A stretch of 31,158 bases of DNA from IMG/VR virus record IMGVR_UViG_3300027752_000066, positions 1 through 31,158 of that record; one strand, 5' to 3'. Positions 1,391 through 28,142 of the stretch are shown here, one piece after another. The notes beneath the pieces are model-generated. The model did no database searches and was not told the DNA's origin. It saw only the letters and a program-made list of their open reading frames with translations. This stretch comes from a virus. Position 1 is the first letter of the stretch. Every line of letters starts with the position of its first letter. Position numbers and translations under genes: made by a program.

Positions 1391-4300
1391 TTACTGTCTT
1401 ATTTGTTTCTTTAATTCCTCAATTTCTGCTTTTAATTCTTTTACCGAATTTATAAGTGCAAAAGTTAAAGCGTGTCCATCAAAATTATACAATTCTGTTT
1501 CTTCTTCATCGGTTTCGTTTAATTTAGCATTATAAGTTTTTATAGTTTCAGGAAATATTTTAATCATATCCTGTGCTATAATTCCTACATTGTCTTTTAT
1601 TTTATCAAAACCTGCTTTTCCATTATAATCAAAAGTTTTAGTATTTACTTGTAAAATTTCATTTAATCCTTTTTCATAAGGTTTTATATTTTCTTTAACT
1701 CTTTCATCAGATACAACTATCCAAAGAGAACTTGAAGGTTTTGCTGCTGAATTAGTGCTTAATTGAAGTTGATAAGAAGGAGTATTCCCAATACCTATGT
1801 AACCATTGGATTTTATAGTTAAATGGTTTGTATAATTTATTTCATCAGTAGAATATCCGAAATACATTAACCCACTTTGAGCCCACCATTTCCATTGTTG
1901 TCCGTAATTACTTCTATTTAAAACAAAACCACCATTTGAGTAGTTAGTGTTTTTAAGTTCTATATTTGGACTTGAAGAACCCTGAACAGTAAGTTCGTGA
2001 GAAGGAATATCCGTTCCAATACCTACGTTACCTGAATTATCCACTGTAACATCTTGACCTCCACTTGCCCATAAAGACAACTTATTGTCTGAATGATTAA
2101 ATCTCACTCTCCCTGAAAATTGAGAACCTGCATCCCCAAACAATAACTCCGATTGATTAGCACCTACTATTGAAACAAATGCTCTACTACTATTTGATGA
2201 TTCAAAAATAGCAGAAGTTCCTGAAGTTGGTGTCCAAGTTCTTACAGTATTACCTGCTACAACATTTAATTGAGCCTGTGGGTCACTTGTTCCAATACCT
2301 ACGTTACCACTTCTTAAAACAATAGAATCTTCATTGTTTGGTACTTTAAAAGACATATAAGGACTTCCTCCTGAAGTTGATTTTATCTTAATACCCATAT
2401 CGAATGCAGTACTACTATTTGCCCCCATTCTAAGAGCGTATGCGTCTTGATTTGAAGAGTATGCAATGGGAGTAGCGTAAATAGAACCTTGTACTTCAAG
2501 TTTTTCTAATGGACTATCAGTTCCAATACCTACACTTCCATCTAATAATTGAGTAAATGCAGTTGTTTGTGAGGATGAACCAAAGTGAAATTTACCATCA
2601 GATGCTTTCCATATTCTATGCGATGCTGCTGCTGCACTTGTAATAGCTATTCCATCACCTGCTCCGTTTCCTTTTTGCTTAATAATTAAAGTACCTCCTG
2701 ATGTATTAACTCCAACTCCTCCGTCAATAGTTGTAGGTGATGTAAATGTCTTTGTACCGCTTATTGTTTGCGTGGTGTTTGTAGTTACATAATTACTTAA
2801 ATCTTGGTCGCCTGTATTTGTTCCGCTTGTATTTGCTAATCTTGTAGAACTTGTACTATCAAATGAGATTTTAGAGTTGTTTGTAGTTATATTATTTGCT
2901 TGAGTAGATGTTATTCCTACCTTAGAATTATTTGTAATAATATCAGCAGACTGTTGAGAGGTTATACCAACCTTTGAGGTGTTTGCAATAATTTGAGATT
3001 GCTCACTACTCGTAATGCCTACCTTACTGTTATTGGTTGAAATGTCATTAGCCTGTTGAGAGGTTATTCCGACCTTTGCGTTATTAGTTGTTATATTATT
3101 TGCTTGTGTTAATGTTATTCCTGTCTTAAAGTTGTTAGTATTAATATCATTCGCTTGTTGAGTTGTAATTCCTACCTTAGCGGTATTTGCAGATACATCA
3201 TAATTAGAAGAAACCAATGCATCCGTATATCCTACCTTCGCATTGTTTGCAGTTATATCAGAAGCCTGTTGTGAAGTAATACCTGTTTTAAGCGTGTTTG
3301 CAGCAACCGCTGAATTATTAGATACTAAGTTAGGTAAATTTGTAAGTGTTGGATAAAAAGCATTGTAATCCGCTTCTACTGCTAAAATATTCCCTATTCT
3401 ACCAAATACAGTCTTAACATCATCCGTGTTGTCTATTTTCTGCCAAGCAATACCATTTGAAACAATCCAATCTCCTATCTCATAAGAAACGCTTAAATAC
3501 GTTCCTGCAGTTGATACAATATAATAGTTTCCATTTACTGTTGTTGGGTTAGGTAATGTTGGGTTATCTGTGTTTGCGTTCCAAGTTCCAACGTATGATA
3601 ATTGTCCAATAATTGATGCAGGTAAATATTGCTCTAAAATCTTCCCATTTGCATCCAAAGGAACATAACCACTTGCTTGTCCTTTATTAGCTAAAAATTC
3701 AGCAGTACTATTTATTGTAGATATATTATTATTAATATCAATAATATCAAGTACGTTTGTAGATATATCGTTTGTATTTGAAACTATCTCATTGAAATTA
3801 TTTGTAATATTAGTTGTATTGGTAGTTATTGCAGTTGATTGTGCAGGTGTAATTCCTACTTTTGCAGTATTTGCTACAACGCTTGAATTAGCAGAAACCA
3901 ACGCTTCTGTATAACCTACCTTTAAAGTGTTTGCATCTATCTCAGAAATCTGTGATGCAGAAATACCATCCTTTAAATTGTTTGCTTCAATATCACTTGC
4001 TTGTTGAGTAGTAATGCCCACTTTTGCGGTGTTGGCAACTACATCAGAATTTGCAGAAACAAGTGCATCAGTATAACCAACTTTAGAATTGTTTATATTT
4101 ATGTCAGATGCTTGAACGCTTGTAATTCCTACCTTAGCGGTGTTACTTACAATGTCAGCAGCTTGACTTGAAGTAATACCTGTCTTTGCGTTATTGGTTG
4201 TGATATCAGATGCTTGTTGTGGAGTGATACCAACCTTTGCAGTATTTAATGCAATAGCAGTTACATTTAAACCTATTTGTGTAGTGTTTAATCCAATAGC

Positions 4301-4756
4301 AGATTCCAAAGTAGAACCTGAAATAATTACAGAAGTACCGCTAACAGTTGTAGAAATGCCACCTAATCCATTCAAGTAAAATACTTGACTATCTAAGTCA
4401 ATAGAACCATTACTTCCTGAATTTCCACTAAAGGCTAATGCAGCAGCAGTAAAAGATGAATCTACATAATTCTTAACAGATAAAGTTGTAGGTACTGAAG
4501 TATTATTTGCAAAGTTTTCAATACCATCTGTTGAGGTTATAAATTTAGAAATCTCAATATTAGAAATGTCTTTTAAGTTACCAAACTGAATATTGTTTGT
4601 TACTTTAAAGTTTCCTAAATTGTCTAAAAATAAGCCTGTTTGGTTTCCTGCTCCATCTGTTAATTCTTTTTGTACTGCACCTATAATTCCATTATCTAAA
4701 GTTTTAATTAAACCTTGGTAAGTATCTGATATTTTGGTGTTAAATAAAGTAGCCAT
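1391..4756 (-). CDS. Tail fibre with C-terminal S74 intramolecular chaperone
   Basis: A 1,121-residue host-recognition fibre. Two arrays of 17-residue units with the core N-T/N-x-K-V-G-I-T (about residues 160-345 and 480-650), with occasional 20-residue variants containing GYTDALVSAN, suggest a long trimeric rod. Between them is a GTWNANTDNPTLP...GDWIV segment seen in other phage fibres. After about 700 come three VGIGT-x-x-P repeats of the type found ahead of self-processing domains. The C-terminus (about 1010-1121) begins SDERVKENI and ends in a coiled coil, matching Peptidase_S74, the chaperone that trimerises the fibre and then cuts itself off at the Ser of the SDER motif. Third-longest reach from capsid genes and next to lysis genes, as expected. 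Confidence 0.9.
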   Translation of the reverse strand: MATLFNTKISDTYQGLIKTLDNGIIGAVQKELTDGAGNQTGLFLDNLGNFKVTNNIQFGNLKDISNIEISKFITSTDGIENFANNTSVPTTLSVKNYVDSSFTAAALAFSGNSGSNGSIDLDSQVFYLNGLGGISTTVSGTSVIISGSTLESAIGLNTTQIGLNVTAIALNTAKVGITPQQASDITTNNAKTGITSSQAADIVSNTAKVGITSVQASDININNSKVGYTDALVSANSDVVANTAKVGITTQQASDIEANNLKDGISASQISEIDANTLKVGYTEALVSANSSVVANTAKVGITPAQSTAITTNTTNITNNFNEIVSNTNDISTNVLDIIDINNNISTINSTAEFLANKGQASGYVPLDANGKILEQYLPASIIGQLSYVGTWNANTDNPTLPNPTTVNGNYYIVSTAGTYLSVSYEIGDWIVSNGIAWQKIDNTDDVKTVFGRIGNILAVEADYNAFYPTLTNLPNLVSNNSAVAANTLKTGITSQQASDITANNAKVGYTDALVSSNYDVSANTAKVGITTQQANDINTNNFKTGITLTQANNITTNNAKVGITSQQANDISTNNSKVGITSSEQSQIIANTSKVGITSQQSADIITNNSKVGITSTQANNITTNNSKISFDSTSSTRLANTSGTNTGDQDLSNYVTTNTTQTISGTKTFTSPTTIDGGVGVNTSGGTLIIKQKGNGAGDGIAITSAAAASHRIWKASDGKFHFGSSSQTTAFTQLLDGSVGIGTDSPLEKLEVQGSIYATPIAYSSNQDAYALRMGANSSTAFDMGIKIKSTSGGSPYMSFKVPNNEDSIVLRSGNVGIGTSDPQAQLNVVAGNTVRTWTPTSGTSAIFESSNSSRAFVSIVGANQSELLFGDAGSQFSGRVRFNHSDNKLSLWASGGQDVTVDNSGNVGIGTDIPSHELTVQGSSSPNIELKNTNYSNGGFVLNRSNYGQQWKWWAQSGLMYFGYSTDEINYTNHLTIKSNGYIGIGNTPSYQLQLSTNSAAKPSSSLWIVVSDERVKENIKPYEKGLNEILQVNTKTFDYNGKAGFDKIKDNVGIIAQDMIKIFPETIKTYNAKLNETDEEETELYNFDGHALTFALINSVKELKAEIEELKKQIRQ

Positions 4757-4769
4757 TGTATTTTTTATT

Positions 4770-5807
4770 TTAAATTATTCCACCATCTGTGATTGTCCAA
4801 TTATTAGGTGTCGATGTTAAAACCCCTCTTGCAGTTTGTCCTGCTGCTGAATATGTAATTGTTGCTGCTCCAAAATCAACACCTGCTTGAACAGTTAATG
4901 CAGACCATCCATTTAAAATTGCGTCATAATTGGTTGTAGAAAGTGCTGTTAAATCAAACATACCAATCATATCAGCCACACTACTAACGTTCCACGTACT
5001 AATGTTTTGGTTGAAAGATGATGCAGAATAAAACATATAACTCATATCATTAACACTACTTGTATCCCAAGAACTTATATCTTGGTTAAAAGCAAGTGCT
5101 TGTTGAAACATAGCATTAATTTTTGTAACACTACTTGTGTCCCAATTATTCAATGGTTGATTAAAAACATCAGCACCAATAAACATACCTTGCATAAAAA
5201 TAACACTACTTACATTCCAAGCGTTTAAAGGTTGGTCAAATAAGTTTGCATCTAAAAACATATTGTTCACATTAGTAACACTACTCACATCCCAATTTCC
5301 AATAGGTTGATTAAATACAAGTGCTGCAAAAAACATTTTAGCCATATCAGTAACATTACTCACATCCCAAGAACCAATTGGTTGATTGAAAGAATTGGCT
5401 CCAAAAAACATCTCACGCATATTATTAACATTACCTGTATTCCAACCGCCAATATTTTGATTAAAAGCATTACATTCCCTAAACATAGTGTTCATAGTAG
5501 AAACACTACTCACATCCCAATTTGAAATATCGTCATTAAAAGTAGTTTTATCTCTAAATAATTCTGACATATCAGTAATAGCAGAAACATTCCAAGTATT
5601 AATTTGCCCATAGTCACATATTGCAGAAGCATTATCTGAAACCCATAAATCTACTGCGGTCTGTAATTGAGTTTTAGTACTAAACGGATAACTTGCGCCC
5701 TCAAAACAACCTGCATTACATTGGTCAAACTGTGATGTAGGTAATGAATTTTTATTAGAATCATCTCCCCACCAACTACTACAATAAATTTTTCCCCAAT
5801 TCGCCAT
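4770..5807 (-). CDS. BspA-like (DUF285) repeat protein, putative receptor-binding virion protein
   Basis: A 345-residue protein built mainly of about nine 25-residue repeats with the core F-N-Q-x-I-x-x-W-D-V-S-S-V-x-x-M-x-x-M-F (about residues 75-300). This is the BspA/DUF285 repeat known from surface proteins of Bacteroidota, Mycoplasma and others. A cysteine-bearing N-terminus (CSSWWGDDSN) and a C-terminal TPNNWTITDGG segment flank the array. No signal peptide is evident, and the gene lies 13 nt upstream of the tail fibre, so it is probably a structural adhesin on the virion instead of a secreted host protein. The receptor-binding role is inferred from repeats and position. Confidence 0.78.
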   Translation of the reverse strand: MANWGKIYCSSWWGDDSNKNSLPTSQFDQCNAGCFEGASYPFSTKTQLQTAVDLWVSDNASAICDYGQINTWNVSAITDMSELFRDKTTFNDDISNWDVSSVSTMNTMFRECNAFNQNIGGWNTGNVNNMREMFFGANSFNQPIGSWDVSNVTDMAKMFFAALVFNQPIGNWDVSSVTNVNNMFLDANLFDQPLNAWNVSSVIFMQGMFIGADVFNQPLNNWDTSSVTKINAMFQQALAFNQDISSWDTSSVNDMSYMFYSASSFNQNISTWNVSSVADMIGMFDLTALSTTNYDAILNGWSALTVQAGVDFGAATITYSAAGQTARGVLTSTPNNWTITDGGII

Positions 5808-11886: not shown

Positions 11887-14028
11887 TTAACCTATTGATG
11901 CATCTTGAATCACATTTCTATCCATCTCTTGAGCAGTACTTACATCTCCTGCAACTACAAATGCTTTTACAGGTTGTGCTTTTTGACTACCTATTGCATC
12001 TGCCAATTGGTTTGTTTCCGATGAACCAACTATATTAAATGCAGGAGGTTGAGGTGGTGCAGACTGTGAAGCACCCGCTGCAGGATTTGTTGCTGCTCCT
12101 CCCCCCGAAGATGGGTTTGTTGCCATAATAGACTTAACAGATTTAAAACCAATAGCAGCGGTTGATGCAATGTTTACAAGTTTCATAGCAAAGCCAAAAG
12201 GTGTAGTAGTCTTTGTAGCTAATTCAGCGGTAATACCTTGATAGGTGTTTATTAATGCTGATGCTGCTGCTGCTGCTTTTCCTGCTTTAGAATTTTCCCC
12301 TAAAATACCTGCTATTTTACCAAATGCAGAACCAACTGCTAAAATTTTTGTTTTTCTTAATTCATCTTCATCTGCTGCTTCAATATCTGCATATTTTTTA
12401 ATAATTGCAGCACGTTGTTCTTCTGTACCTTCTAACCTTTCAAGTTCAGCTAAAGATTCTGCTTTTTTCTCCTCTAATGTTAGTTCTTTATCCTCAATTT
12501 CTTTTTCTATAAACGCTGCTAATTTTTCGTCTTTTATTAACTGCTCATTATCTTCAATTACTTTTTTCTTTTCCTTAAATGCTGCATCCACATCAAGTAG
12601 CATCTGATTCTTTGCTTCCTCTGATAATTTTAAATCTTCTATTGCCTTTATTCTATCTTCTTTTTCTTTTTCAATAGCAGCAAATTTATTTTCTTTATCA
12701 GTTTCTATTAATGAATCCTTAAAGTCCTGCACCGCTTTTGCATCTGCAATTGCTTGGTCATCAAGTGCTTTTCTTTCTGCTGCTGCCTCCCTTTGTGCTC
12801 CAACTATTTGAGCAGTAACAGTTTTTGCCTTTGTAAGTTTTGCAGTTTCTAAGTCTATTAGTTTTGCCCTTAGTTGTGCTTCCTCGTTTAAATCTTCTGT
12901 TGTGGATTTTCCTAAATTATTTTCTGCTATTTTAGCCTTTAACCTTAACTCAGCAAGTTTAACTTCTTTGTTTGTTATTTCTTCATCAATCTTTCCTGCT
13001 TCTTTTAAGAAATCAATCCTTTGTTGTGCGGTGTAAAGTTCTTTATTTGCAGCCTTGTCTAATAGGTCAGCACGTTTTCTATTTGCTTCTGCTCTTTCAA
13101 TACCTAATTTACGTTCTAATTTATTTGCTTCTGCTCTTTGGTCTGCAATTTTAGCTGCTGCATTCCCTTCTTTTATTATTTCCGATGATAATTCTTTAGT
13201 AGCTTCTGTAACCTTTCCAATAGTATCTTTAACACCTGTTAATGTATCAACATAAGAACTACCTGCTTTTTTAGCATCATCCATCGCACCACCGAAATCT
13301 CCGCTAAATACCTTTTTAATCGCACTACCTAAAAAGCCTATTGTTTCAATTGCACTTGAAATTCTATTAGTAATGTTTTTTACAAATGCATCTTTAAAAT
13401 CAATAAGTGCTTGTTTTGGGTTTTCAAATACTGATATAATAAGTTCACCTAATGAAGCCAATCTATCTGTAAAGACACTGACAACTGAACCAATTACACC
13501 CATCATTTTAGCAAACTTATTTTGCCCTTCCTCTGATGATGTAAAAGCAGCGGTTAAAGATGTTAAAAGAATTAATAAAGCACCTATACCTGTTCCAATA
13601 ATAGCAATCTTCATAAGGTTGAAACCCTTAGTTGCACCGCCTACTGTTTTTGTAAGGTTAGTAAATCCCGAAATTGCACCGCCTGTTTTTTGGTCAATAA
13701 TACCAAGAACCCCACTGTAATCTGCTGCGTTTGCGGTTGATTCCTTTAATTCTTTATTAGCATTTTTACGTTCCTTATTTACGTTTTTTAAGCCATTTTT
13801 TTCCTCTGCTAACCTATCCTTTGTTTTTTCTATTTGGTCGTTTAGTTTCTTTCTACCTGCAAGGTCAGATTTTGATGTTTTTTTTAATTGCTTCTCATAC
13901 TGCAATAGTTCGTTTTCAATTTCATTAATTAACTCCTCTTGTGCCGAAAGGGATTTATTTAATTCATCTACATTTTTCTGTGCAGTTTCCGTTGATACCT
14001 TTAGAGTGTATTCTTTTTCTATTGCCAT
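11887..14028 (-). CDS. Tail tape measure protein
   Basis: A 713-residue protein that sets tail length and helps DNA entry. Residues 1-100 and 290-560 are long, highly charged coiled coils (Lys/Glu/Ala-rich), separated by hydrophobic segments near 135-165 (KIAIIGTGIGALLILLTSL) and followed by another near 565-625. The C-terminal part is Ala/Pro/Ser-rich. If the usual rule of about 1.5 angstrom per residue holds, the tail would be near 107 nm. The start overlaps the preceding mini-gene by 10 nt. Confidence 0.85.
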   Translation of the reverse strand: MAIEKEYTLKVSTETAQKNVDELNKSLSAQEELINEIENELLQYEKQLKKTSKSDLAGRKKLNDQIEKTKDRLAEEKNGLKNVNKERKNANKELKESTANAADYSGVLGIIDQKTGGAISGFTNLTKTVGGATKGFNLMKIAIIGTGIGALLILLTSLTAAFTSSEEGQNKFAKMMGVIGSVVSVFTDRLASLGELIISVFENPKQALIDFKDAFVKNITNRISSAIETIGFLGSAIKKVFSGDFGGAMDDAKKAGSSYVDTLTGVKDTIGKVTEATKELSSEIIKEGNAAAKIADQRAEANKLERKLGIERAEANRKRADLLDKAANKELYTAQQRIDFLKEAGKIDEEITNKEVKLAELRLKAKIAENNLGKSTTEDLNEEAQLRAKLIDLETAKLTKAKTVTAQIVGAQREAAAERKALDDQAIADAKAVQDFKDSLIETDKENKFAAIEKEKEDRIKAIEDLKLSEEAKNQMLLDVDAAFKEKKKVIEDNEQLIKDEKLAAFIEKEIEDKELTLEEKKAESLAELERLEGTEEQRAAIIKKYADIEAADEDELRKTKILAVGSAFGKIAGILGENSKAGKAAAAASALINTYQGITAELATKTTTPFGFAMKLVNIASTAAIGFKSVKSIMATNPSSGGGAATNPAAGASQSAPPQPPAFNIVGSSETNQLADAIGSQKAQPVKAFVVAGDVSTAQEMDRNVIQDASIG

Positions 14029-17377: not shown

Positions 17378-17911
17378 TTATTTTTTTTGTCCGAATATTA
17401 TTTGTTTCTCTATGTCCAAAGCAAATGCCTCTATAAGGTCATCAGGGAGGTTATACGCTGCCTTATTAAATGGCTTGGTAAAGAACTCGTTTCCTTTTAA
17501 TCCTTGAGCAAATATGCTCCTCTGTAAAACAAAACCCATACTTATATTACTACCCTTTGCATACTGTCCCTTTTTATTCCTGAACCTTATGTTTTTTTTC
17601 TTTGCCCAATCCGCTAACATCTGCATCGGTGGCATTTTGTTTGTGTACCTAAATCTACTTGTAGGTGCTTTTTGATATCCACCTTTAACCAAACTTGGAT
17701 TTGAACCCCTTACTCCTTCATCTACAAATTGTCCGTAGCTTTCCATTAAGAAGTCTAATAGGAACAGATTTTTTTCAACATCTAATTCATAAGATATAGA
17801 ATTGTAAAGAGCACCATTGCCTTTGTCATCTTTGCTTAAATTAGACTTGGCTTGTTGCACTACATACTTTGCGTATTTTTCTGCTACCTCTTTTAAATTC
17901 TTGTAGTCCAT
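17378..17911 (-). CDS. HK97-gp10-like tail completion/neck protein
   Basis: A 177-residue protein with a helical N-terminus (VAEKYAKYVVQQAKSNLS) and the segment ESYGQFVDEGVRGSNPSL at about 72-89, reminiscent of the FVExGT region of HK97 gp10 family members, which join heads and tails. It carries a basic central region. Its ATG overlaps the stop of the tail terminator-like gene (TAATG). The HK97 gp10 similarity is judged by eye. Confidence 0.58.
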   Translation of the reverse strand: MDYKNLKEVAEKYAKYVVQQAKSNLSKDDKGNGALYNSISYELDVEKNLFLLDFLMESYGQFVDEGVRGSNPSLVKGGYQKAPTSRFRYTNKMPPMQMLADWAKKKNIRFRNKKGQYAKGSNISMGFVLQRSIFAQGLKGNEFFTKPFNKAAYNLPDDLIEAFALDIEKQIIFGQKK

Positions 17912-18381
17912 TAACAGATTAAAATATCATTGTAAACTAAAACCTCCATTGTGCAAGTCCATCCTGCTAATTGGTTTTCAAACCTATCGTAAAAAGGTGT
18001 CATAGTTGAACTACCTTCCACTTGGTACATATCAGTATATAAGTCCCCCATTCTTAATCTTTGGGTCAGCTTATTTACAACCGCAAGTTGAGTGTTTAAA
18101 ATATCCTGCAAGTTGTTGTTTCCGATAAATATATCTTCTGTTTTTTCTTTAGATTGATTTACAATATCACAAGCCAAAATACTTATGTTAAACCTCAACA
18201 CCCTTTGGTCATCAGTTACACTATTTATTATTAAATGTGATAAAGGAAATATATCTTGCTTGTTTAGGTTTACATCTGTAATGTCCCCTGTTGTTACAGT
18301 ATTAACATTCACGTCTTCTAACAGTGCAGTTTTAATTTCTTGTGTAAGTTTGTAAAAACCTCTAACTCCTTCGTTTGCCAT
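17911..18381 (-). CDS. Tail terminator-like protein
   Basis: A 156-residue protein with features recurring in Bacteroidota phages: GFYKLTQEIKTALLED (8-23), NTVTTGDITDVNLNKQDIFPLSH (27-49, invariant-looking K and PLSH) and LAGWTCTMEVLVYN near the end. Located between the tail chaperone and the gp10-like gene, the position of tail terminators that cap the tube. TAATG overlaps on both sides show translational coupling. Confidence 0.6.
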   Translation of the reverse strand: MANEGVRGFYKLTQEIKTALLEDVNVNTVTTGDITDVNLNKQDIFPLSHLIINSVTDDQRVLRFNISILACDIVNQSKEKTEDIFIGNNNLQDILNTQLAVVNKLTQRLRMGDLYTDMYQVEGSSTMTPFYDRFENQLAGWTCTMEVLVYNDILIC

Positions 18382-18638
18382 TACTTAAATTTTTTCTTCA
18401 TTTGTTTATCTTCTAATTCACTTTTGTCCTTCATAAAACTTAACATCATAAAGCACTCGTGAAAGTTTAATTTAATGATATCTTTAAATCTTGTAATATC
18501 CCCTTGAGCGATTCCGTAAATACTTTGGTACCATCCCCATTTGCTTGAGAATTGAGAAACTGAATCAAGACTTCGTTGTCCTCCTGACTGTCCAAATAGT
18601 TCGTCATAGTTTGCGATAATTCCAACCCTAAATTCCAC
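18381..18638 (-). CDS. Tail assembly chaperone, -1 frameshift extension (gpGT-like)
   Basis: An 85-codon open frame beginning right after the T10 tract and overlapping the end of the frame-0 gene. It has no ATG start of its own (first codon GTG). Its C-terminal part, SKWGWYQSIYGIAQGDITRF and ECFMMLSFMKDKSELE, looks like the T domain of tail chaperones. A -1 slip gives a fusion of about 246 residues (161 shared plus 85). Its stop overlaps the next ATG (TAATG). Independent translation is an alternative. Confidence 0.7.
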   Translation of the reverse strand: MEFRVGIIANYDELFGQSGGQRSLDSVSQFSSKWGWYQSIYGIAQGDITRFKDIIKLNFHECFMMLSFMKDKSELEDKQMKKKFK

Positions 18639-19120
18639 AAAAAAAAAATTGATGATAAGACTGCATCCATTGGCATATCCAAAATTGCTTCTGCATTTTC
18701 TAAATTGTGCTCCTCAATACTGTACCTATCTTTTAAGGAAACTAAAATTGGTCTATAAAGTACATTCATAGCCTTTTCAATATTATCCCAATCACCAATG
18801 TAAGTGTCAAGTTCAATGTATTCCCCTAAGCCTAAATCGTGGAGGTTTGGATGAAAACCATAATTAACACCTTTTAAGGCAAACTTTTTTACAAGTGAAG
18901 GCTTAGTATCAAACATCCCTGTTAGCTTACCTGTAATCTCCTCAACATCACTAACCTTTAAAAGCATTACCTTTGTAAGTTCTGCATTGCAAAATATCTC
19001 AATCATTTTAGCATTCAGGAACAAAGTTTCTTTTGTGTTACCTTGAACTGTAAGAAACCTTTTATACTGCCTTAATGTAATCTCATTTAACGATGTAGGA
19101 ATTTTTAGATTCAATTTCAT
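18467..19120 (-). CDS. Tail assembly chaperone, frame-0 product (gpG-like)
   Basis: A 217-residue protein starting MKLNLKIPTSLNEITLRQYK. The core has YIELDTYIGDWDNIEKAMNVLYRP (about 100-124), which I associate with tail chaperones next to tape measure clusters in Bacteroidota phages. At codons 158-161 the message contains T10 (18639-18648). Ribosomes staying in frame finish here with a 57-residue tail; those slipping -1 enter the 18638-18381 frame. A late-leader motif abuts the ATG and a terminator lies just upstream, so this gene probably begins its own transcription or translation unit. Confidence 0.72.
   Translation of the reverse strand: MKLNLKIPTSLNEITLRQYKRFLTVQGNTKETLFLNAKMIEIFCNAELTKVMLLKVSDVEEITGKLTGMFDTKPSLVKKFALKGVNYGFHPNLHDLGLGEYIELDTYIGDWDNIEKAMNVLYRPILVSLKDRYSIEEHNLENAEAILDMPMDAVLSSIFFLWNLGLELSQTMTNYLDSQEDNEVLIQFLNSQANGDGTKVFTESLKGILQDLKISLN
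18639..18648 (-). other. T10 slippery site for -1 frameshifting
   Basis: Ten consecutive T on the coding strand, read ATT TTT TTT TTG in frame 0 (Ile-Phe-Phe-Leu). Slipping back one base yields Phe-Val-Glu-Phe-Arg and continues through the conserved-looking extension. This is the expected layout for the G/GT switch of tail chaperones. A sequencing error in the homopolymer would mimic it. Confidence 0.68.
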
Positions 19121-19816: not shown

Positions 19817-21025
19817 TTAAGAAATTAAATATTTACCTCTATTTGGGTTTTGTAATTGATATGAAATTGCATACCTGACCGCATCCAAAAGGTGGTTCCA
19901 AGAATCTTGTGGAGTTTTAGATTTCTTTTCAAGCCAAGAGTAATTGTTTAGTTCTTTGATTAAATTAATACTGTTTTCTTCTATGATTAAATCGTAATCC
20001 TGAAGCAATGAAATTCCGTATGTAATTGAACCCTGCCCTTTTATAGATTTGACTATGTTACAACCTTTTGATTTAAGTTCGTGCAAAAGTCGAGGTTCAG
20101 CAGAATCACCTACAATTAAACCATTCTTAGCGTGTTTTAAGTTAAGCACTGCAATCTCTGATGTAGTAAGAGCCTTTAAGTAAAAACATTCTTTTAAATA
20201 GATGATTTTGTTTACTGTATCAATATTAGTTTCTACAAGCGTATTTTCATCTGAAGCGAATCCGTAATCTTGACCAAAGACAGAAACACCTACTTCTTTA
20301 AAAGCACCTATTTTCCAATTATTAAATATAACACCCTCCGCTTTGTTTAGCCAACCCCCAAGCATTTGATGTTTATACTTTTCGGGTCGTCTTTGTTTTA
20401 TGTTTTCTATCTGCTCTAAATAACTTTGAGATAGATTTTCTTCATTGTCTAAATATGTGGTATGTATATAAGTAGTATTTCCTTTTGTTAAGTTTGAACT
20501 TGGTGGCACTCCTTTATCTTCAAAGAATCTTGAATATATAAAATGTTCTTTAGTTGTTGGGTTCAAAATTAATATAACCCTGTTCTGCTGCTTGAGGTTT
20601 CTTACTGATAAATCTATCTTGTCAAATATGTTCTCATCCATAAGTTCTTCTGCTTCATCCATAACCCAAGTGCTAACATTAGTTAAGGACTTCAGGTTTG
20701 CAGTTTGGTCGCCTGATGATGTCTTTATCCCTTTAAATAATATCTTGCTTCCTGAACGCTTATTTACAATCTCATCTTTTGTTATGTGAAAATCCTGCTC
20801 AATATTTAAGGTTTCTATTTTATCTATAAATTCAGGAATGATTGAAATGTATGCTGATGATAAAGTGAATCTTGTAAACAGGATAGTATGCCCTGCTTCA
20901 TAGGTTAGCAACACCAACATTAAGTTTATTGAGTATGACTTTCCTGACCCACGCCCTCCTGTAACTATAAAGTAACGTGAATCTGAATCAGTTATTGGTG
21001 AATACTTTTTATCAACATCTATCAC
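19817..21025 (-). CDS. terL: Terminase large subunit
   Basis: A 402-residue packaging motor. ATPase: Walker A TGGRGSGKS at 22-30, Walker B with catalytic acids WVMDEAEE at 120-127, and the coupling segment ILILNPT at about 151-157. Nuclease: candidate metal-binding Asp at GQDYGF (253), VGDSAEP (307) and LLDAVRYA (381), an RNase H-like triad. Size and layout fit the Terminase_3 (PBSX/P22-like) family. The start overlaps the small terminase stop. It cuts the concatemer and pumps DNA into the prohead through the portal. Confidence 0.94.
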   Translation of the reverse strand: MIDVDKKYSPITDSDSRYFIVTGGRGSGKSYSINLMLVLLTYEAGHTILFTRFTLSSAYISIIPEFIDKIETLNIEQDFHITKDEIVNKRSGSKILFKGIKTSSGDQTANLKSLTNVSTWVMDEAEELMDENIFDKIDLSVRNLKQQNRVILILNPTTKEHFIYSRFFEDKGVPPSSNLTKGNTTYIHTTYLDNEENLSQSYLEQIENIKQRRPEKYKHQMLGGWLNKAEGVIFNNWKIGAFKEVGVSVFGQDYGFASDENTLVETNIDTVNKIIYLKECFYLKALTTSEIAVLNLKHAKNGLIVGDSAEPRLLHELKSKGCNIVKSIKGQGSITYGISLLQDYDLIIEENSINLIKELNNYSWLEKKSKTPQDSWNHLLDAVRYAISYQLQNPNRGKYLIS

Positions 21026-27024: not shown

Positions 27025-27624
27025 TTATTGTTTTATTTCTGTTAAATCAAAATCTTTTGTTGCTGCATCATAATAAATGAAATATACAGGTTTTTTATAT
27101 TTGTTTTCATAATTTTTATGAAGTACTTTAATATTTTCTTTGGTTCTTTGTAACTCCTTATTGTTAGTTGTTTTACTTTTATATGTTAATGGTTTTACTT
27201 GTACTGCAAATGATTCAGTTTCCAAATCAACTGCAAAGTTTACATCTTTATCTTCACCTGCATATGTAACTTTTAAGCCATATTTTTCTTGTAATAATGT
27301 TATTGCACCTGCTTCTTTTCTATAACCATCTACCGACTGCTTAATGACCCTGTGTTTAAAATGTTCTGACCATTGTTTTTTTATTTCATTTTCTTCAATT
27401 TTAGAAAACTTTTCTTTTAAAAAATTAAGAGCAATATTGTAATGGTTTCTTACTTTTGTTTTATTGCATACCTTTTTAAAATAATTATAAAAACTTGTGT
27501 AGGTTATAATTCCATTTTCTTTTTCACACATTTTAATCATCAACATAGTGCTTCCTATACTACTTGCAAAAAACGCTTGTTTGTATTCGTAATTTTTATC
27601 TATTGTTCTGAAATCTATTTTCAC
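27025..27624 (-). CDS. MjaI-like restriction endonuclease
   Basis: A 199-residue protein whose C-terminal half resembles the MjaI restriction endonuclease family: KQSVDGYRKEAGAITLL (95-111, candidate Glu104), DVNFAVDLE with Asp133, and FAVQVKPLTY with Q142-x-K144, a PD-D...QxK variant of the PD-(D/E)XK core. The N-terminus lacks a recognised domain. MjaI recognises CTAG; this window contains no CTAG that I can find. Its ATG overlaps the sigma-factor stop, so it would be expressed with early/middle genes, perhaps degrading host DNA. Family assignment is by eye from memory. Confidence 0.58.
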   Translation of the reverse strand: MKIDFRTIDKNYEYKQAFFASSIGSTMLMIKMCEKENGIITYTSFYNYFKKVCNKTKVRNHYNIALNFLKEKFSKIEENEIKKQWSEHFKHRVIKQSVDGYRKEAGAITLLQEKYGLKVTYAGEDKDVNFAVDLETESFAVQVKPLTYKSKTTNNKELQRTKENIKVLHKNYENKYKKPVYFIYYDAATKDFDLTEIKQ

Positions 27625-28142
27625 AATAATTTTTTTAATTTACTTTTTACTTTGTGATATGTATTGTAAAGTGAATAATATTGTATTTTTGATTTTCTTG
27701 ATAGTTCTGCAATAGTTTCACCGCCTTCAATTATTTCATAAACAACTCTGTCATACCAAATCATATTGGAAAGTGAATTATTTATTTTTTGATACTCCTC
27801 GTCAAAGTCTAACATTACAGAAAAGTTTTCTTTATAGTATTCAGCCTTGTAATTCTCTTTGCTATCAAATTCTTCATCTTCATCTAATCTAACAAATTTA
27901 ACGTTTTTACCTCTCCTTTTTAAGTCTATAAATATTGAGTTTAAAGTTTTAAATATGTAATAGTAATTTATTTCATCTTTGTCATACATTATATCAGTGC
28001 CCCATTTCTGTATTGACTTCTGAATTTTAATGTACATTTCCTGAACTATGTCTTCAGCGGTTTCATCTGAAACTCCAAAAGAGCCAACGATTTCAACCCA
28101 AACTTGATGCTTTTTAAAAATCTCAATTACTTCTTTACTCAT
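27621..28142 (-). CDS. Sigma-70-like RNA polymerase sigma factor
   Basis: A 173-residue protein with sigma region 2 features: AEDIVQEMYIKIQKSI (29-44) and ILKTLNSIFIDLKRRG-like helices near 65-78, then an acidic linker, and a region 4-like helix-turn-helix (about 140-173, ELSRKSKIQYYSLYNTYHKV). This is an ECF-like two-domain sigma. It could redirect host RNA polymerase to late genes, whose shared CGTTATATAA leaders are candidates for its targets. It overlaps the MjaI-like gene by 4 nt. Confidence 0.72.
   Translation of the reverse strand: MSKEVIEIFKKHQVWVEIVGSFGVSDETAEDIVQEMYIKIQKSIQKWGTDIMYDKDEINYYYIFKTLNSIFIDLKRRGKNVKFVRLDEDEEFDSKENYKAEYYKENFSVMLDFDEEYQKINNSLSNMIWYDRVVYEIIEGGETIAELSRKSKIQYYSLYNTYHKVKSKLKKLL

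Follow-up and report, generated by a model that had tools for sequence, protein, structure and literature searches.

A probable tail assembly chaperone gene and its proposed programmed −1 frame switch on a conserved run of at least nine Ts

In phage lambda, the short form of the tail assembly chaperone, gpG, coats the tape measure protein, and the gpGT fusion recruits the tail tube subunit. The initial annotation of the locus described here had invoked this principle, and the layout fits it: as in lambda, the gene lies in a tailed phage, its second ORF has no start of its own, and a long and a short product would arise from one start through a −1 switch late in the first ORF. The constraint that we find on run length suits transcriptional slippage at least as well as ribosomal frameshifting.

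According to an excerpt of the PRFect paper (PMC10885494), the mean distance from frameshift site to stop is 26 nt in the SEA-PHAGES training data. Programmed transcriptional slippage, as excerpted from PMC1088944 and PMC5009743 for Thermus dnaX, IS elements and Shigella type III genes, offers another likeness to our locus: nine or more A or T in a row within coding sequence, followed by a second frame that is long and conserved, with runs of that length avoided elsewhere. Baranov 2005 (PMC1088944) further describes that, in many bacterial genomes, selection against A/T runs shows once these reach nine nucleotides.

We consider it very likely that the locus encodes a probable tail assembly chaperone of a phage, whose gene needs an unbroken stretch of nine or more Ts for a programmed −1 frame switch. 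The −1 switch that had been proposed is strongly supported by conservation; the chaperone name given with it is plausible.

Layout of the locus and conservation of the T run

The window, by which we mean the whole stretch of DNA analysed, is a viral record of 31,158 bases. Its relatives include Nonlabens phages and one contig in a Flavobacteriaceae metagenome-assembled genome, and because of these related contigs the host is probably a marine member of the Bacteroidetes, infected by a small phage. The terminase large subunit gene (19817-21025; Pfam Terminase_3, E 9e-35) lies upstream of a 217-aa ORF on the minus strand (18467-19120). This ORF, which we read as the short, gpG-like product of a probable tail assembly chaperone gene, is confirmed with the length of 217 residues that the initial annotation gave, as is the position of the T run: the plus strand carries A10 (18639-18648) between a C and a T, and the minus strand therefore T10. 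Residues 158–162 of frame 0 read ATT TTT TTT TTG TGG, with 56 residues after TTG. The view that a pure T10 is not a usual XXXYYYZ site does not hold, since the in-frame ATT TTT TTT TTG contains two such heptamers with X=Y=T, namely T_TTT_TTT and T_TTT_TTG.

The −1 frame opens inside the T run and comprises 88 codons and a stop (18381-18647, minus; FFFVEFR...KWGWYQSIYGIAQGDI...KKKFK), which would form the C-terminal, gpT-like domain of a fusion. With 158 residues from frame 0, the fusion would measure about 246 aa, in agreement with the length first estimated. The −1 stop (18383-18381) shares bases with the ATG that opens the next gene (156 aa, 17911-18381, minus), as TAATG, which marks the −1 frame as the end of a gene. 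Between the run and the frame-0 stop, the 56-residue frame-0 tail and the −1 domain share the same DNA (18470-18638, minus), an overlap recognised as dual-coded by wobble constraint and stop counts.

Relatives were sampled from viral contigs as the best 80 matches per search (63 in one), many loci sharing a contig. The main set held 537 sequences, including the window, phage P12024S and one genome locus, and removal of identical 270-nt segments left 321 distinct sites. Some search patterns reached into the FF motif at the run; the others lay off the run, and the searches made with these were not selecting for it. Among these best matches, a T run was present at 321 of 321 distinct sites (T9 at 127, T10 at 188, T12 at 6), and T7, T8 or T11 was found at none of the 321. 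Conservation thus concerns a run of at least nine Ts at the switch, and its length, T9 to T12, rather than its codon register: the run starts at codon position 1, 2 or 3 in 47, 267 and 7 of the 321 sites, positions 1 and 3 representing few independent lineages. An extra search, using an alignment of the N-terminal domain only and patterns upstream of the run, returned its 80 best loci; 57 new readable sites, not identical to the earlier ones, all carried T9 or T10, and two of the 80 loci reached the contig edge before the site. An in-frame T_TTT_TTT was present at every readable site (321 + 57 = 378).

The −1 frame after the run spans 79–91 codons at all complete sites of the 321, and 76–88 at the complete sites listed of the further 57. 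Eight positions are invariant in 46 aligned −1 segments (F2, F3, F6, R7, F33, W39, Y40 and L69). At 234 of 317 closed sites the frame-0 tail has a length of 55 or 56 codons, and elsewhere it reaches up to 84; it is 16 or 25 codons in the P12024S-like lineage. As a separate observation, a lone relative (L242:1136-1636) carries T10 and a frame-0 tail of just 6 codons, compared with the usual 55, through natural loss or error.

Named relatives include the phages P12024S and P12024L of Nonlabens (Persicivirga), which share this layout around a T9 run and in which the two halves (genes 38 and 39) are each annotated as a hypothetical protein. The genes are homologous to ours at ~31% identity, lie in the same place after the terminase, have the site CTT TTT TTT TAT CAT TTA and carry a −1 domain with KWSWY/KWGWY. 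They differ from the window in the T9 run and in a frame-0 tail of only 25 codons, which lacks the GDGINQF...LKISLN motif. In P12024S (JQ823122; L083:6001-6695), gene 39 uses as its start an internal ATG midway through the −1 frame, and genes 38 and 39 look like the halves of one frame-switch product.

Selection on both frames and access to the second

The overlap segment codes in two frames, and the frame-0 tail after the run is under selection. We determined diversity in 30 sequences, chosen from 70 as one gap-free group with less than 93% pairwise nucleotide identity. Mean gene diversity at frame-0 codon positions 1/2/3 was 0.225/0.161/0.462 upstream, 0.156/0.241/0.253 in the overlap and 0.086/0.314/0.185 past the frame-0 stop. 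The overlap figures indicate that the wobble positions of frame 0 and of the −1 frame (frame-0 position 2) are both damped. Amino-acid identity within the overlap was 0.613 in frame 0 and 0.693 in the −1 frame, and over the same 30 sequences frame 0 and the −1 frame each held 0 stops, against 218 in the +1 control. When the −1 protein was resampled synonymously, frame 0 stayed open across the overlap in 0.18% of trials; with the frame-0 protein resampled, the −1 frame stayed open in 0.89%. The initial annotation had remarked, as a reservation, that frame 0 continues unusually far. The long continuation is real; it is a second, selected C-terminus and no weakness of the frameshift idea.

How ribosomes would reach the −1 frame can be judged from the 314 sites at which it is complete. 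At 214 of them, no ATG, GTG or TTG occurs within the first 12 −1 codons. In the window, the absence of ATG noted earlier is true near the start of the frame; ATGs do occur late in it (CFMMLSFM), and a GTG directly follows the run, a start that lacks conservation among the relatives. The start of the next gene usually lies inside or adjoins the −1 stop, the distance from stop to ATG being −4 at 146 sites, −1 at 64, −8 at 35 and 0 at 28. The +1 frame meets a stop two codons past the run at 286 of 314 sites. The locus thus consists of two overlapping ORFs, the second without its own start, with an in-frame slippery site at the junction where a −1 switch would join them.

Could the −1 part instead stand as a gene in its own right, initiated here by the GTG right after the run? 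A GTG does stand directly at the run in 87 of the 314 sites and a TTG in 10, and the annotation of P12024S splits the locus into two genes; we nonetheless regard this as very improbable, because most sites offer none of the three start codons in the first 12 codons and the −1 frame is conserved from the run itself onwards. It is less probable still, to the point of being negligible, that an indel error or a decaying pseudogene conceals a single continuous frame. Homopolymers are indeed prone to error and mutation, yet the same two-frame layout recurs in separate assemblies at every readable site of the 378, runs of T9, T10 and T12 in three codon registers all hold the frames apart, and selection acts on both; we regard error and decay as ruled out by the layout and the dual selection. 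A −1 switch at the T run is the reading that requires the fewest assumptions.

Slippage by polymerase or by ribosome

In the mechanism that we infer, from production of the fusion to its chaperone role and the level of slippage, most expression would give the 217-aa frame-0 protein and a minority the ~246-aa fusion of the N-terminal domain (residues 1 to ~160) to a helical C-terminal domain with KWGWY and GDI motifs. If lambda is a guide, the tape measure protein would be coated by the short form, and it would fall to the fusion to bring in the tail tube subunit. RNA polymerase would slip on the T run, and one extra U would bring ribosomes into the −1 frame; ribosomal slippage at the ever-present in-frame U_UUU_UUU may be an alternative or a co-contributor. 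The two levels are near even, with polymerase slightly favoured. A further-reaching reading, to which we give somewhat less than an even chance, is that the host RNA polymerase, slipping on at least nine Ts, sets the ratio of short form to fusion at transcription, with dual-coded DNA behind the run and two separately selected C-termini, in a large chaperone family.

Avoidance of runs elsewhere was estimated from 577 other ORFs (411 kb) of the same loci, the chaperone genes being excluded by coordinates and codon shuffles serving as expectation. T7, T8 and T≥9 occurred 49, 8 and 1 times, compared with 76.0, 37.6 and 12.1 in codon shuffles, and A8 and A≥9 occurred 53 and 9 times, compared with 77.5 and 43.5; the control is imperfect, as T5 in one register was also halved and codon-pair bias is uncontrolled. 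Avoidance thus grows with run length in these ORFs, and replication slippage would likewise drive it. T7 in the T_TTT_TTT register was found 24 times against 43.8 expected, and 25 times against 32.3 in the other registers, a deficit which suggests that ribosomes slip there too.

The alternative to slippage by polymerase is a ribosomal −1 frameshift on U_UUU_UUU (or U_UUU_UUG) in uniform mRNA, as for lambda gpG/gpGT, the long run being a by-product of the heptamer and its flanking codons. It concerns the slippage level only; we give it a little less than an even chance, a figure that overlaps that of our preferred explanation. The slippery heptamer T_TTT_TTT is in frame at every readable site, as any run of nine or more Ts must contain it, so that ribosomes could shift at any of the sites. 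Avoidance of T7 is stronger in that register than in others, the flanking residues (I/L/V and Y/L/W) give some of the run's Ts for free, and the tail chaperone shifts described in an excerpt of PMC5009743 are ribosomal. Against this stands the floor of nine Ts in every register: none of the 378 sites has T7 or T8, though the heptamer would survive in AGT TTT TTT, or in NTT TTT TTT with CTN behind it, and if the Ts on either side of the two central Phe codons were independent fewer than nine would be expected at ~12 of 321 sites (observed 0; relatedness ignored). The run is kept when neighbouring codons change, AGT before the two Phe codons pairing with TTT after them at 7 of 7 sites and CTN after them with TTT before them at 10 of 10, both in few lineages. 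No site among those sampled depends on U_UUU_UUC alone. Nor did 46 representatives show a bias to RNA structure, tested as nested folds, within 60 nt upstream or 110 nt downstream, with mean MFE z between −0.01 and 0.51 on both sides. For these reasons, and because T≥8 is avoided elsewhere, we lean slightly towards slippage by RNA polymerase.

Elsewhere in the window, a 173-aa protein (27621-28142) looks sigma-factor-like by eye, and a P12024S gene at a similar place is annotated with Sigma-70 region 2. The phage may steer the host RNA polymerase, which is also the candidate enzyme for slippage on the T run.

Chaperone identity and comparison with known systems

Identification as a tail assembly chaperone is probable, on the basis of the two-product architecture, a weak fold match and matches to phrog_166. 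Neither Pfam nor NCBIfam families matched the gene product, and searches of the PDB by sequence and fold gave nothing usable, an absence that is no proof of a new fold. All 45 aligned members matched phrog_32199, of unknown function, and 9 of 45 matched phrog_166, 'tail protein'; 5 of 46 −1 pieces matched phrog_38404, also unknown. AlphaFold gave the frame-0 protein a mean pLDDT of 79, with residues 1-160 mostly ~90 and the last 40 ~45, and predicted the −1 segment alone as helical (mean pLDDT 66). A fold search of BFVD returned a weak match to a 'Tail assembly chaperone protein' (A0A8S5V8Z8; E 0.026, prob 0.98, TM ~0.4), and the search of viral models also returned P12024S and many uncultured phage proteins. 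The gene follows the terminase and does not directly precede the tape measure candidate (11887-14028), which lies downstream with four ORFs between and to which no family gives a name. The two-product layout in a tailed phage, together with the weak matches, makes a chaperone likely, but the place of the gene relative to the one for the tape measure protein is an ambiguous guide.

Flavobacterium phage 6H gp10 was recovered as a fold match, with a weak profile match (probability 35, E 0.0004). In 6H (L538:10044-10927, minus), TGT TTT TTC TAT stands at the position of the run with an immediate −1 stop, and past that stop lies an unannotated open frame of 105 codons.

At 1391-5807, the window also encodes a 345-aa protein of repeated 'FNQPIGNWDVSNVT' units beside a 1121-aa protein with repeated 'ITTNNAKVGIT' units. 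The former is presumably like BspA/DUF285, and we take the C-terminus of the latter to resemble the intramolecular chaperone of tail spikes; both are probably receptor-binding parts.

The family constitutes a natural experiment on ribosomal versus polymerase slippage and on the evolution of long dual-coded ends, usually 55 codons after the site and up to 84. It suggests a probable function for many pairs of 'hypothetical proteins' in aquatic phages, with two orphan PHROGs as halves of one product, and the T run with its layout would offer a simple motif for annotating such pairs.

Compared with lambda-type chaperones, the overlap is ~165 nt long (up to ~250 nt) and codes in both frames, a homopolymer of at least nine Ts replaces varied heptamers, and our searches matched the sequence to none of the named chaperone families. 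Unlike slippage in Thermus dnaX, IS elements and Shigella, the run here would serve a tail chaperone, a use not found in the excerpts of the literature searched; those excerpts likewise describe no tail chaperone that depends on slippage during transcription or whose dual-coded end is as long as this one. Frameshifts in tail chaperones are already known; what sets this family apart is the run of at least nine Ts and the long dual-coded end.
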